Of a stretch of 35,427 nucleotides of DNA, positions 10,353-15,559 are shown in pieces. The position numbers were made by a program, and so were the translations under genes. The notes beneath the pieces were generated by a model. That model was given only the letters and a program-made list of their open reading frames with translations. It made no database searches and was not told the DNA's origin. The first letter of the stretch is position 1; each line of letters opens with the position of its first letter. The DNA comes from Acidimicrobiia bacterium (GTDB taxonomy: Bacteria; Actinomycetota; Acidimicrobiia; Spongiisociales; JAHEDJ01), in assembly GCA_035471805.1 (NCBI GenBank), contig DATIPS010000022.1, positions 1-35,427 on the forward strand, written 5' to 3'.

Positions 10353-11842
10353 TGTCGTCACCAGCCACCGCGGGCGCTGCACAGCAGGACTCGATGGGAC
10401 GCCGATTGTCGTTCATCATCGGGGCGGTGGTGGCGGCGAGCGGATTGGCCATGGTGCCCGCCGCGCTCGTCTCAGCTGGATACCAGGAGTGGGCGGAAGC
10501 CGGTCAGATTCTCGCCGCGGCTGCGGTGACCATCGTGGTCGGACTCTTCGCCTGGCGCATCATCGGAAAGCACGGCGTCCTCACCACCAAGGAGGGCTTC
10601 GCCGCCGTTGGGCTCGCCTGGTTCGTGATGGCTTTCTTCGGAACGCTCCCGTATCTGTTCACCGGATCGATCACCAGTCTCACCGACGCATTCTTCGAGA
10701 CCGCAGCCGGATTCACCACGACGGGCGCCTCGATCATCGCCGATCCTGCCGAGCTGTCCCACGGCGTCCTGATCTGGAGGGCCGGTACCCAATGGTTGGG
10801 CGGAATGGGCGTGATCGTCCTGTCGATTGCCATCCTCCCTCTTCTCGGTGTCGGCGGAGTTCAACTGGCCAGGGCCGAGTCTCCCGGGCCGCAACCCGAC
10901 AGGTTGACACCGCGTTTTCGAGAGACGGCCAAGCGCCTCTGGTGGATATACGTGGCCTTCACCGTGCTCGAGATCCTGATGCTCTGGGCCGGGGACATGA
11001 ATCTGTTTCAGGCGGTGGCCCACTCTTTCACGACGATGTCGACCGGTGGTTTCAGTACGGAAGCAACCTCGATCAGCGGCTTCAGCCCCTACACGCAGTG
11101 GGTCATCACCGCTTTCATGTTCATCGCCGGAGCATCCTTCGCCCTGCACTTCCGCGCCTTGCGAAGACCCGGGGAATACCTCCGCAACGCCGAGTTTCGC
11201 CTCTATGCCCTACTGCTCTTCGTGGCGATCGCGGTCGTCTCGTTCGGAATCTGGACGACGGACATGTGGCATGGATCGTTGCGAGATGCCGCGTTCACGA
11301 CCACTTCGATAATGACTACAACCGGATACGCGACCGCGGACTTCGGGTCCTGGGCACCCGGCCTCCAGATCCTCATCGTCGGACTGATGTTCCTGGGCGG
11401 CAGCTCTGGTTCAACGGCGGGCGGTGTGAAGACTTTCCGCGTCGCCGTCCTCACCCGGGCCGCGGCAGCCGACCTGCGCCGACTCGTCCATCCGCGCTCT
11501 GTTCTCATCACCCGCTTCGGAGGAAAAGCGGTGTCCGACCCGATTGTCGGATCAGTCCAATCCTTCTTCCTGTTCTACATGTTCCTGTTCATGACGGGAA
11601 CGGTTCTCCTCGGCCTCATCGAATCGCGCCTGGGCACCGGCCTGGACCTCATCACTTCGACGTCCGCGGTCGCTTCGAGTCTGGGCAATATCGGGCCCGG
11701 CCTCGGACTGGTCGGCCCAACCTCCAACTTCATGGCCGTTCCGAACGTTGGCAAGTGGCTTCTCTCGTTCCTGATGATTGCCGGTCGCCTCGAGATCTTC
11801 CCCGTGCTCTTGCTGTTCACTCGTGACCTCTGGCGACGGTAG
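10352..11842 (+). CDS. trkH: TrkH-type potassium uptake channel subunit (first copy)
   Basis: The ATG at 10352 overlaps the trkA stop by one base and gives 496 residues; the frame is open upstream but that is a trkA shadow. The four selectivity-filter loops of the SKT superfamily are visible: TTTGAS, TMSTGGFS, TTTGYA, and SSLGNIGPG, each with the conserved glycine. A GGSSGSTAGGVKTFR segment follows the third repeat, as in TrkH family members where it forms the intramembrane gate loop. The chain is strongly hydrophobic with 8 or more predicted spans, and ends RDLWRR in the cytoplasm. It carries K+ (or Na+) inward with TrkA bound below. It is cotranscribed with trkA. Confidence 0.95.
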   Translation: MSSPATAGAAQQDSMGRRLSFIIGAVVAASGLAMVPAALVSAGYQEWAEAGQILAAAAVTIVVGLFAWRIIGKHGVLTTKEGFAAVGLAWFVMAFFGTLPYLFTGSITSLTDAFFETAAGFTTTGASIIADPAELSHGVLIWRAGTQWLGGMGVIVLSIAILPLLGVGGVQLARAESPGPQPDRLTPRFRETAKRLWWIYVAFTVLEILMLWAGDMNLFQAVAHSFTTMSTGGFSTEATSISGFSPYTQWVITAFMFIAGASFALHFRALRRPGEYLRNAEFRLYALLLFVAIAVVSFGIWTTDMWHGSLRDAAFTTTSIMTTTGYATADFGSWAPGLQILIVGLMFLGGSSGSTAGGVKTFRVAVLTRAAAADLRRLVHPRSVLITRFGGKAVSDPIVGSVQSFFLFYMFLFMTGTVLLGLIESRLGTGLDLITSTSAVASSLGNIGPGLGLVGPTSNFMAVPNVGKWLLSFLMIAGRLEIFPVLLLFTRDLWRR

Positions 11843-11965: not shown

Positions 11966-12622
11966 ATGCGAATCGTGATCGCGGGCTGCGGGCGGGTCGG
12001 CGCCAACGTGGCGAAGATGCTGGTCGGAGCCGGGCATGACGTCACGGTCGTCGACCGAAGCGAAGAGGCGCTCGAAACCCTCGGACGCGCCTTCAACGGG
12101 ACCGTCGTTCTCGGGGAAGCATACGATGTCGACACGTTGCGAGAGGCCGGCATCGAACTCGCCGATGTGTTCCTGGCGGTGACGGATTCCGACAACGCCA
12201 ACCTCATGGCAAGCGAGGTGGCCAAAGCCGTATTCGACGTGCCCCGGTCGATCGCACGCCTCTACGACCCTGCCCGCGAAGAGACCTACCACGCTCTCGA
12301 CATTCACCACGTGACCGGGACCAAACTGATCGCCAACGTGCTCTATGAGCAGATCATGGACGAAGAGTTCGCCTTCCACGTCACTTTCCCGAAGGGCGAC
12401 GTCGAAGTGGTCGAGTTCCACCTTTCGGAGGCCGCCGACGGCATGCGGGTGGATCAGCTCGAGATCGACCACGAACTGCGGATAGCCGCCATCCAGCGTG
12501 GTGAGGTGACCGTGATCCCGAAAGACGAGCTGAAGCTGCGCGGCGGCGATCTGGTGGTGGCCGCCGCTCGCGAGGGCGTCCGCAGCCGGATCCACAAGTA
12601 CGTGACCGAGAAAGACCGCTGA
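11966..12622 (+). CDS. Short TrkA-type RCK protein (CeoB-like)
   Basis: ATG at 11966 (MRIVIAGCGRVGANVAKMLV) has GAGGAGAAGGAAG just upstream and gives 218 residues; the longer frame from 11900 lacks this support. The product is one RCK_N with intact GCGRVG and an Asp after strand 2 (VTVVDRSEE), followed by one RCK_C domain ending RIHKYVTEKDR. The length and tandem arrangement match the paired single-RCK TrkA homologues ceoB and ceoC of mycobacteria. It should dimerise or pair with the protein encoded 2 bases downstream to form a gating ring on TrkH. DSDNANLMASEVAKAVF is the standard RCK helix region. Confidence 0.92.
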   Translation: MRIVIAGCGRVGANVAKMLVGAGHDVTVVDRSEEALETLGRAFNGTVVLGEAYDVDTLREAGIELADVFLAVTDSDNANLMASEVAKAVFDVPRSIARLYDPAREETYHALDIHHVTGTKLIANVLYEQIMDEEFAFHVTFPKGDVEVVEFHLSEAADGMRVDQLEIDHELRIAAIQRGEVTVIPKDELKLRGGDLVVAAAREGVRSRIHKYVTEKDR

Positions 12623-12624
12623 TC

Positions 12625-13386
12625 GTGCGAATCGTGATCATCGGAGGCGGAAAGGTCGGCGGGTTCCTCGCCAGACAGCTACGCGAGGCGGGCCACACGA
12701 TCACGGTGATCGAGCTCAATGAGTCGAACGCCGAGGAACTCGCCGCCGACGCGGACGTCCTGTGCCTCCTTGGAGACGGAACCGACGTTGCACTCCTGAG
12801 GAGAGCCGAAACCCAGCGAGCCGACTACCTGCTGGCGCTGACCGGCCGCGACGAAGACAACCTGGTTGCATGCCAGCTCGCCAAAGCTGCCTTCGGAACC
12901 CCGAGGGTGCTTGCCAGGCTCAACGACCCCCGTAACCGTCGCACGTTCGACGCGCTCCAGGTTCCGGTCGTCGGCTTCACCGACGTGGTGGCAAAGGTGA
13001 TCAGCAGCGAACTGGACGTCGGTGAACTGGCGCGCGTTGCCCTGCTCGATCGCGGAGACGTCAGTCTGCTCGAGATCGTCATACCCGATGATCTTCCGCC
13101 CCGCGAGGTCGATTCACTGAGCCTGCCGCCGTCGAGCATCCTCGTCGCGGTTCGCCGGGACGGCGCGGTGCTGGTTCCCGGCCCGGAGACCATGATTCAG
13201 GCCGGGGATCGGGTTCTCGCCGTCACCAGAACAGAGACGGAGGAAGGCGTGAGGGATGCTCTGGTCAGGATGACCCCCGCCTCGGGTCAGAGAGAAGACG
13301 CCAACACCGCAATACTCGAAGGAAAGGGAATCGAGATCTCCGGTGCGCCGGGAACACCGGAAAGCCCGGGTGAGGGAAATGGCTAG
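12625..13386 (+). CDS. Short TrkA-type RCK protein (CeoC-like)
   Basis: The GTG at 12625 follows the previous stop by 2 bases, so translation is probably coupled. The 253-residue product starts with MRIVIIGGGKVGGFLARQLR, an intact Rossmann motif, and has Glu after strand 2 (TVIELNESN), fitting NAD binding. DEDNLVACQLAKAAFGTPRV is the RCK interface helix, and an RCK_C domain follows to about residue 215. The last 30 residues are a polar Gly/Pro/Glu tail absent from the upstream gene. Its final codons overlap the start of the 44-residue membrane protein gene. Together with the preceding gene it resembles the ceoB/ceoC pair. Confidence 0.91.
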   Translation: MRIVIIGGGKVGGFLARQLREAGHTITVIELNESNAEELAADADVLCLLGDGTDVALLRRAETQRADYLLALTGRDEDNLVACQLAKAAFGTPRVLARLNDPRNRRTFDALQVPVVGFTDVVAKVISSELDVGELARVALLDRGDVSLLEIVIPDDLPPREVDSLSLPPSSILVAVRRDGAVLVPGPETMIQAGDRVLAVTRTETEEGVRDALVRMTPASGQREDANTAILEGKGIEISGAPGTPESPGEGNG

Positions 13387-13513
13387 AAGACGGCGGAGGG
13401 CCTACGAGTACGTCGTCGGAGGGTTCGCAGGCGTACTCATCGAGGTCGGAGCACTCGTTGTCCTCAGCCTCACAGCACTGCTGACCGCCCTCATCGTTGC
13501 GTGGATCCTGTGA
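13379..13513 (+). CDS. 44-residue single-span membrane protein in the Trk island
   Basis: A short frame opens at ATG 13379, inside the last codons of the CeoC-like gene, and stops at 13513, one base before the GTG of the second trkH (TGA, A, GTG). The product starts MARRRRRAYEYVVGG, then has about 28 hydrophobic residues and ends LTALLTALIVAWIL. The five arginines predict a cytoplasmic N-terminus and a single membrane span that ends almost at the C-terminus. GAGGGA lies just before the ATG. Position, overlap on both sides and composition suggest a real gene, perhaps an accessory subunit of the adjacent channel as small KdpF-like proteins are for other K+ transporters. I recognise no family. 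Confidence 0.7.
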   Translation: MARRRRRAYEYVVGGFAGVLIEVGALVVLSLTALLTALIVAWIL

Positions 13514-13514
13514 A

Positions 13515-15008
13515 GTGCTGATCCGTCCGCAATCCTCCGACATCAAACTGGTCGGCTTCCAGCTCGGCAGGGTTCTCTATGTTGTCGGAATCGCCGGCAT
13601 AATCCCGCTCGTCTGGGCAATCATCGATCGAGATTGGCATTCCGCCTCCTCGTTCATCTTCATGATCGGTTTGGCACTTGCCATCGCCGCCTCTGTGGAG
13701 AGGTTCCGTCCCAAAGAAGAGCACGCCGGCTGGCATCACGGCATGGTCACAGTCGCGCTCGTGTGGCTGGTGGTCCCGGCCCTCGGCGCCATTCCGCTGG
13801 CGCTGAGCCGCCACTACGGCCGCCCGCTGGACGCCTTCTTCGATGCGATGAGCGGCGTCACAACCACCGGCCTGGCCTTGATTCAGGATGTTGATCACCT
13901 CGCCTCCTCGATCAACGTGTGGCGAAGCGCCCTGCAGTTCCTCGGCGGCCAGGGGATCGTTCTGGCGGCCCTGATGTTCTTCGGTGGAGGCGGCGTACTG
14001 GCGCTCTACCACGGTGAGGCTCGGGACGAGCGCATCTTCCCCTCGGTTGGCTCGACGGCTCGCTTCATCTGGTCGGTCAGCCTCTTCCATGCCGTGTTCG
14101 GCATCACCGCACTGTGGGCCGTGGGATCGTTCATCCTGGGGTTTCATCCGATGCGTTCGCTTCTGCATGCGATAACCATCTTCATGTCGGCCTTCGATAC
14201 CGGAGGATTCGCCCCGATGAGCACGAGCATCGGCTACTACCACTCGGTGACCTACGAGTCCGTGATCGGGGTTCTGATGGTGGCCGGGGCATTGTCGTTC
14301 GGCGCCCATTACGCGCTGTGGAGAGGGCCCCGCAACCTGCTGCGCAACCTGGAAGCCCGCACGATCCTCACGACTTTCGCCGGGACCCTCATCATCGCGC
14401 TGTTCGGCCTCGCAGCTACCGGGTTGTACACGGACGGACTCTCTCTCGGTCGACAGGGGTTCTTCCAACTCCTCTCCGCACATACGGGTACCGGCTTTTC
14501 GACCGTGCCGCCGGCGGACCTGATCCGATGGAGTGGTCTCGCCTTCGGAGGAATCACGATTGCCATGGCTCTGGGAGGAATGGGTTCATCCACCGCAGGA
14601 GGGGTCAAGGCTCTGAGGATCGGCCTCACGGTGCGTTCTCTGTGGAATACCGTCAAGGAAGCTCTGCTTCCCGAAGGGTCGGTCATCTCTAATCGCTACT
14701 CGCAGGGAAGCCCCAAGGTGCTGCATCCGGAACTGGCCCAGTCGGTCATGACGATCTCCCTTCTCTACGTCGGCCTGTACCTCCTGGGAACAGCAGTCGG
14801 GATCGCATACGGTGTGCCGCTCCAGCAGGCCATGTTCGAGTCGGTGAGTGCAGGGGCCTCCGTCGGCCTATCGGTAGGAGTTGTGGACCCGACGATGCCG
14901 GTCATCCTGGAACTGGTCTACGTTCTACAGATGTGGATCGGCCGCCTCGAGTTCGTCGCCGTGTTCGCCCTCGTCGGGTTCGTCGTCAGCTGGGTGGTAG
15001 GCGAATGA
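13515..15008 (+). CDS. trkH: TrkH-type potassium uptake channel subunit (second copy)
   Basis: I take GTG at 13515 (VLIRPQSSDIKLVGFQLGRV), immediately after the small membrane gene, giving 497 residues; an upstream TTG would place six codons inside that gene. Filter loops are VTTTGLA, FDTGGFA, HTGTGFST and SVGLSVG, each with the key glycine, in a chain of 8 or more spans. GGMGSSTAGGVKALR follows the third filter, as in the first copy. The fourth loop (GASVGLSVG) differs from that copy (SSLGNIGPG), so the two channels are not recent duplicates. It is presumably gated by the CeoB/CeoC-like pair. Its stop overlaps the next start (ATGA). Confidence 0.94.
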   Translation: MLIRPQSSDIKLVGFQLGRVLYVVGIAGIIPLVWAIIDRDWHSASSFIFMIGLALAIAASVERFRPKEEHAGWHHGMVTVALVWLVVPALGAIPLALSRHYGRPLDAFFDAMSGVTTTGLALIQDVDHLASSINVWRSALQFLGGQGIVLAALMFFGGGGVLALYHGEARDERIFPSVGSTARFIWSVSLFHAVFGITALWAVGSFILGFHPMRSLLHAITIFMSAFDTGGFAPMSTSIGYYHSVTYESVIGVLMVAGALSFGAHYALWRGPRNLLRNLEARTILTTFAGTLIIALFGLAATGLYTDGLSLGRQGFFQLLSAHTGTGFSTVPPADLIRWSGLAFGGITIAMALGGMGSSTAGGVKALRIGLTVRSLWNTVKEALLPEGSVISNRYSQGSPKVLHPELAQSVMTISLLYVGLYLLGTAVGIAYGVPLQQAMFESVSAGASVGLSVGVVDPTMPVILELVYVLQMWIGRLEFVAVFALVGFVVSWVVGE

Positions 15009-15559
15009 GGGTGTGCATGATCCTGACCTCCGTCGCAATGCTGCTGGTCGGACCGGCACTCCCGTCAGCCGCAACCGAAGTATCAGATCTACTGTCGGAT
15101 CCGGAGTCATGGGCGGGCAAGGTCGTAGAGGTCAGCGGCGAGATCGTCGGTGACTACGGACGGCACTCCGGCTCCTTCTGGCTACAGCTGAACGACGACG
15201 CCTATGCCGTGGAGCCGCTGCTCGAGACGGGACGCCTGGCAGGGTCGAATATCGGCCTCACCCTCCGCGTCCCACCCGAACTGTTCGAAGAGATCGCAGC
15301 AGCAGAGCAACCTGGTGGATACCGGTGGCGCGGGCCGATTCTCAAGGTCGTCGGCGAGTATCGCTACCACGACCCCGATCGCAGCGGTGAGACGTACATC
15401 GCAGTGACTGCCCTCGAAATCGTCGAATCGGGGCGGCACCTGCCCTCAGAGGCAACGGGACCGTTGGGAATGGTCGGAGTGATTCTGGCAGTAGGTGCCG
15501 CAACTGTGCTGGCGCGGCACGCACGACAGCGCAGACGCGAATGGCGGCTCGAGGACTAG
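15005..15559 (+). CDS. Exported OB-fold-like protein with C-terminal membrane anchor
   Basis: The ATG at 15005 overlaps the trkH stop by 4 bases; the product is 184 residues. Residues 1-23 look like a signal peptide (MRVCMILTSVAMLLVGPALP). Residues 27-135 form alternating short strands with DPESWAGKVVEVSGEIVGDY, GSFWLQLNDD and ILKVVGEYRYHD, a pattern like OB-fold (tRNA_anti-like) domains. Residues 152-168 form a second hydrophobic span (MVGVILAVGAATVLARH) followed by the basic tail ARQRRREW. The protein would thus sit on the outer face of the membrane with a small cytoplasmic tail. Function is unknown; the tight coupling hints at a role with the channel. The gene is the last of the plus-strand block. 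Confidence 0.82.
   Translation: MRVCMILTSVAMLLVGPALPSAATEVSDLLSDPESWAGKVVEVSGEIVGDYGRHSGSFWLQLNDDAYAVEPLLETGRLAGSNIGLTLRVPPELFEEIAAAEQPGGYRWRGPILKVVGEYRYHDPDRSGETYIAVTALEIVESGRHLPSEATGPLGMVGVILAVGAATVLARHARQRRREWRLED

Follow-up and report, generated by a model that had tools for sequence, protein, structure and literature searches.

A short membrane protein encoded directly before one TrkH subfamily: a probable small subunit of Trk potassium transporters

The Trk machine is regarded as complete with TrkH and an RCK partner, and throughout membrane transport single-helix subunits pose a question still to be settled. In a stretch of 35,427 nucleotides from an Acidimicrobiia bacterium (contig DATIPS010000022.1, positions 1 to 35,427; hereafter the window), a short open frame, here termed sm, is squeezed between an RCK gene and a trkH gene. 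Its position raises the question of whether this frame is a gene at all and, if it is, whether its product belongs to the transporter encoded around it. The genes concerned are arranged as follows.

About 10400 to 11842 (start approximate), + strand: trkH1, an ordinary TrkH paralogue without an sm of its own
11966 to 12622, + strand: RCK1, a TrkA-like gating subunit with TrkA_N and TrkA_C matches
12625 to 13386, + strand: RCK2, a TrkA-like gating subunit with TrkA_N and TrkA_C matches, overlapping sm by 8 bases
13379 to 13513, + strand: sm, a predicted single-helix membrane protein of 44 aa with an Arg-rich N-terminus and a GVLIE motif (Glu22)
13515 to 15008, + strand: trkH2, a TrkH-family K+ transporter subunit of 497 aa (PF02386) belonging to the sm-carrying subfamily
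15005 to 15559, + strand: the OB-fold partner, a predicted secreted protein of 184 aa with a signal peptide, a C-terminal transmembrane segment and a basic tail, its frame overlapping the trkH2 stop in an ATGA

The sm frame and its setting

The sm frame runs from ATG to TGA over 44 codons and encodes MARRRRRAYEYVVGGFAGVLIEVGALVVLSLTALLTALIVAWIL. The initial annotation had described it as overlapping the last codons of the RCK gene, as stopping one base before the trkH start and as encoding an Arg-rich start followed by one long hydrophobic span, and each of these particulars was borne out: RCK2 ends at 13386, the sm stop codon ends at 13513 and is separated by a single A (13514) from the GTG at 13515, and the 44 aa translation displays both the Arg-rich N-terminus and a single hydrophobic span. 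A GTG further upstream, at 13343, also leaves the frame open; the ATG is supported by relatives from the same genus, which carry MARRR at the same place and are 57–64% identical to the window protein. Across its members sm is mostly about 38–52 aa in length. No Pfam or NCBIfam model matched the window protein, ten diverse members likewise gave no credible match to either collection, and a sequence search of the PDB yielded no solved structure matching sm. When the 44 aa protein was employed as sole query, a few weak true matches were obtained amid noise beyond the genus; homologues were found by first locating trkH2 and then reading its upstream region.

TrkH2 matched PF02386 at 132.5 bits (cut-off 27; E 2.1e-38) and TIGR00933 at 222.9, the latter being below the stricter cut-off of 331.15. 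A TrkH2 profile matched the TrkH of Vibrio parahaemolyticus (3pjz, 4j9u) over its full length, and residues 51–538 of the model of a homologue (L208) superposed on residues 2–483 of 6v4k_A with a Z of 37.1 and an rmsd of 3.0, the N-terminal extra domain included. The possibility that sm is a displaced TrkH helix was rejected, as TrkH2 retains the full helix set of Vibrio TrkH; since the part of the model that matches Vibrio TrkH consists of residues 51–538, the sm helix would be additional to the known TrkH helices.

The operon of the window TrkH follows a two-RCK design, in which two separate single-RCK genes, both with TrkA_N and TrkA_C, lie directly upstream of trkH2, and trkH1 is also present. 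trkH1 and trkH2 are about 30% identical and share one cluster with the two RCK genes, within which sm and the OB-fold gene are neighbours of trkH2 only. The window genome contains exactly one match to the sm profile described below, which leaves trkH1 without one. A comparable design has been described in Thermotoga maritima, where, according to the accessible part of that account, two separate RCK proteins encoded by overlapping frames, TM1088A and TM1088B, serve one TrkH, TM1089 (PMC4380455). TM1088A is, however, given TrkA_N only in that part of the account, whereas both window RCKs also carry TrkA_C, and the same part describes neither a small membrane protein nor an OB-fold partner.

Linkage of sm to the trkH2 subfamily

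A TrkH2 search of 59 related genomes distinguished close relatives (52–97% identity) from ordinary TrkHs (about 30%), and all 19 full-length loci of the order with readable upstream sequence carry a short frame with one long hydrophobic span directly before trkH2. TrkH2 relatives are present in 82 of 296 genomes sampled across the phylum, and the subfamily is found in the actinobacterial order to which the window belongs, in further classes of that phylum and in Omnitrophota, with sporadic occurrences elsewhere. The named contigs with TrkH2 belong to Omnitrophota, Nitriliruptoraceae, Saganbacteria/Margulisbacteria and a few Desulfobacterota-type and other bins, all being at least 41% identical. 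In other classes and phyla, where TrkH2 identity is 38–48%, sm recurs, an example from beyond the order being MRFKPTVNVILGIITEILYVFSIILAAFLICLLVSFKS (L183). In two loci (L095, L097) a broken N-terminal trkH fragment is found between sm and the intact trkH2, as a consequence of which sm lies about 190–250 bases from trkH2.

The specificity of this linkage was assessed by a six-frame search of 429 whole genomes (137 from the order and 292 from the phylum, a few genomes being in both sets) using a 26-row sm profile (A3). This search gave 71 matches at E ≤ 0.01, 70 of which lie just upstream of trkH2: 66 are immediately upstream, and on the same strand, of a listed trkH2, while four precede a trkH2 that runs off the end of its contig. 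The remaining match (G013) falls inside a frame of 973 residues and was taken as false. In a background of 247 genomes of another phylum, the search returned just the query genome itself and a match located within a frame of 1051 aa. No credible match to the profile was observed in genomes of the order that possess ordinary TrkH only, and the plasmid collection contained distant haloarchaeal TrkH only, the one inspected being without an sm-like frame. sm is confined to genomes with the TrkH2 subfamily, where it lies immediately upstream of trkH2, in most loci no more than a few bases from the start of that gene. Because the only genomic link of sm is to a single TrkH subfamily, an accessory subunit of the Trk complex, as proposed in the initial annotation, is its best reading, and the proposal is supported at the genetic and evolutionary level by this linkage and by sequence conservation. 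The evidence argues, with a probability of roughly 0.7, for sm acting together with TrkH2, as a small protein integral to the membrane and an accessory subunit of a Trk transporter built from several parts.

A second gene is similarly placed on the other side of trkH2. The product is predicted to consist of a signal peptide followed by a domain outside the cytoplasm and by a C-terminal helix that ends in a basic tail. Sufficient sequence was available at 135 loci, and in 128 of them the gene comes right after trkH2; 115 of these 128 also carry sm. A profile search of the order found 44 copies, 41 of them adjacent to a listed trkH2 and three in genomes outside the trkH2 tables. The predicted structure (mean pLDDT 93) is best matched by the OB domains of aspartyl- and asparaginyl-tRNA synthetases, MCM, RPA and OBodies (Z about 11–12); no curated family fits the protein, a few members matching OB-type models weakly. 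The gene is conserved directly 3' of trkH2 over several phyla and its tie to trkH2 is as tight as that of sm, so that sm is one of two unnamed proteins linked to this TrkH subfamily, the OB-fold protein being possibly an extracytoplasmic subunit. In L090, L093 and L250 an OB-fold-type gene is located upstream of trkH2, and in L090 and L093 one is located downstream as well, which suggests tandem trkH2-OB units.

In four loci of Saganbacteria/Margulisbacteria (L182, L190, L197 and L234) and one of Omnitrophota (L229), the RCK gene abuts trkH2 and sm is missing. Relocation of sm to another site was rejected, as no match was found elsewhere in these five genomes. All five keep the OB-fold gene and constitute natural sm knock-outs. 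The gap between RCK and trkH2 has a median of 142 bases in loci with sm, as against −4 to +5 in six of the seven scored loci without it.

These loci bear on which protein sm would contact. It could be a subunit whose direct partner is not TrkH2 but the RCK ring, to which it would provide a membrane anchor, or the OB-fold protein, and such an arrangement would agree with the position of sm beside RCK in nearly all loci and with the OB-fold protein being equally tied to trkH2 and possessing a single transmembrane helix of its own. We nevertheless consider it unlikely, since genomes that have other TrkHs and are without trkH2 are also without sm, and since the Saganbacteria-type loci retain RCK, TrkH2 and the OB-fold protein in the absence of sm.

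Conservation of the sm sequence

The sm sequence itself was also analysed for conservation. In the order, sm aligns without gaps from a Glu residue to near the C-terminus, the Glu being invariant in the 19 loci, and the core that it shares with sm from beyond the order reads G-[ILMVF]-x-x-E and continues into a largely hydrophobic stretch of about 20 residues, in which those at +11 and +15 are small. Using a profile trained on the order only, sm of other groups scored above the 99th percentile of composition-matched shuffles in 11 of 41 and 20 of 59 cases. The dN/dS analysis that the initial annotation had recommended revealed purifying selection on the frame, NG86 ratios of 0.05, 0.28, 0.31 and 0.32 being obtained for close pairs that have few gaps and an unsaturated dS and whose nucleotide differences fall predominantly in third positions; weaker ratios of 0.26 and 0.62 came from two pairs at greater distance. 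A lack of conservation of frame, start and hydrophobic span at homologous loci had been named as the observation that would speak against the proposal, and the opposite was found, all three being kept within the order, in further classes of the same phylum and in phyla beyond it. On sequence evidence, the sm frame is a real, conserved gene under purifying selection.

The distances from the sm stop to the trkH2 start cluster at −4 (52 loci), −1 (27) and +1 (26), and in the window the GTG of trkH2 is one base past the sm stop. Since most loci have the two frames overlapping or directly adjoining, sm and TrkH2 would probably be synthesised in step. Taken alone, such synthesis would also fit a leader that acts mainly through translational coupling, whereby ribosomes that have completed sm go on to initiate at trkH2 and the peptide has little function of its own. 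This explanation is improbable in view of the selection against amino acid changes in sm, the G-x3-E core that is kept without gaps across phyla, and the loci in which 40–100 bases separate sm from trkH2 and the same protein is retained; the conservation of the amino acids speaks in favour of a role for the peptide itself.

The short, hydrophobic sequence and basic N-terminus of sm would suit an unrelated toxin-like or chaperone-like peptide merely riding in the operon, but such a peptide would hardly be expected almost nowhere except upstream of trkH2 among 429 genomes, and we judge this origin highly improbable. Under a fixed definition of sm (34–65 codons, a maximum 19-residue hydropathy of at least 2.3 and a stop within −60/+10 of the trkH start), a qualifying frame occurred in 140 of the 176 distinct regions upstream of trkH2, as against 2 of 3520 dinucleotide-preserving shuffles, and about 20% of trkH2 loci fail this strict definition; the shuffle test is independent of the profile, whereas the conservation statistics derive partly from sequences also used in building it. 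Open frames are many in GC-rich DNA, but a chance frame is refuted by these counts, by conservation over phyla, by dN/dS below 1 and by profile matches specific to trkH2, and is scarcely conceivable.

The conserved Glu is not universal. Several distinct branches of the TrkH2 tree carry Val, Thr, Leu, Ala, Ile or Ser in its place, and it has been lost several times independently, the loci concerned being L274, L244, L192/L240, L194/L217, L297/L298, L086/L091/L096 and those of the Nitriliruptoraceae type. Several TrkH2 columns change in up to four of the loss groups and none changes in all, clade effects confounding this comparison. As there are lineages without sm and lineages without the Glu, sm is not essential to every TrkH2: it is a strongly preferred, not obligatory, partner, in which the Glu is important but replaceable.

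Proposed role of sm and relation to known systems

The accessory subunit reading can be extended to a working model, for which the sequence features of sm provide the basis. sm would insert into the membrane as a single helix with its Arg-rich end in the cytoplasm; the N-terminus is more positive than the C-terminus in 97 of 125 members, the reverse being true of 13. The Glu would then lie in the inner leaflet, in the cytoplasmic third of the helix, and Gly at −4 together with Ala/Gly at +11 and +15 relative to the Glu may form a small-residue face for packing against TrkH2 or against the anchor helix of the OB-fold protein. A fused sm-TrkH2 prediction, in which loci with natural in-frame read-through served as the paired alignment, returned sm as one helix (pLDDT about 63–67) whose placement was not confident, and the top pairs of a mean-field coupling analysis of sm against TrkH2 (153 pairs, Neff 113) were scattered without a clear interface. 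The complex would comprise the RCK ring, TrkH2, sm and the OB-fold protein, with sm stabilising it or tuning its gating.

KdpFABC is a K+-pumping P-type ATPase, and its KdpA is a distant relative of TrkH. In agreement with the TrkH fold of this channel subunit, KdpA chains match the TrkH2 model at a Z of about 18. KdpF, like sm, is a small single-helix membrane protein encoded with K+ transport genes, and is supposed to stabilise the KdpFABC complex (PMC3618439). It is shorter than most sm proteins, at about 30 aa, and sm differs from it in its basic N-terminus and inner Glu, and in being encoded between RCK and trkH2 and not with kdpA, kdpB and kdpC. The comparison with KdpF drawn in the initial annotation therefore stands as an analogy and fails as homology, given that no curated family model, KdpF included, matches sm; the closest functional analogue of sm would be KdpF beside KdpA.

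The structurally characterised TrkH-TrkA of Vibrio parahaemolyticus (3pjz, 4j9u and 6v4j-l) resembles the present system in its RCK partner and in the full-length alignment with TrkH2, which includes the extra N-terminal helices, although TrkH2 is only about 21–22% identical in the fold alignment; neither a small helix subunit nor an OB-fold protein was detected from the titles of these entries or by sequence search. Small proteins of up to about 50 aa that bind a transporter and tune or stabilise it include AcrZ, MgtS, MgtU and MntS (PMC10710835), but these act on other transporters, and the review in question mentions neither Trk nor KdpF. No description of a small TrkH subunit or of an OB-fold Trk partner was found in the literature, a search from which subscription journals were largely absent and which leaves priority unproven.

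As a 44-residue protein is encoded directly before one TrkH subfamily across phyla, transporters of the TrkH2 subfamily probably carry an overlooked small subunit. A broader proposal, to which we assign even odds, is that the product of TrkH2 operons is a K+ transporter of several subunits that has gone unrecognised, in which a TrkH channel is joined by a cytoplasmic RCK ring, by sm within the membrane and by an OB-fold subunit that lies outside the cytoplasm and is held by a single anchoring helix, with the parts laid out as KdpF and KdpC are around KdpA and with the RCK ring in place of the ATPase. If sm, together with the OB-fold protein, is indeed a subunit, two components have been missed in the annotation of a large Trk subfamily, and experiments that reconstitute the transporter from only TrkH and TrkA would give a misleading picture. 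Given that the partner, the G-x3-E motif and the natural losses of both sm and its Glu are all defined, the question of what small subunits do is directly testable in this system.
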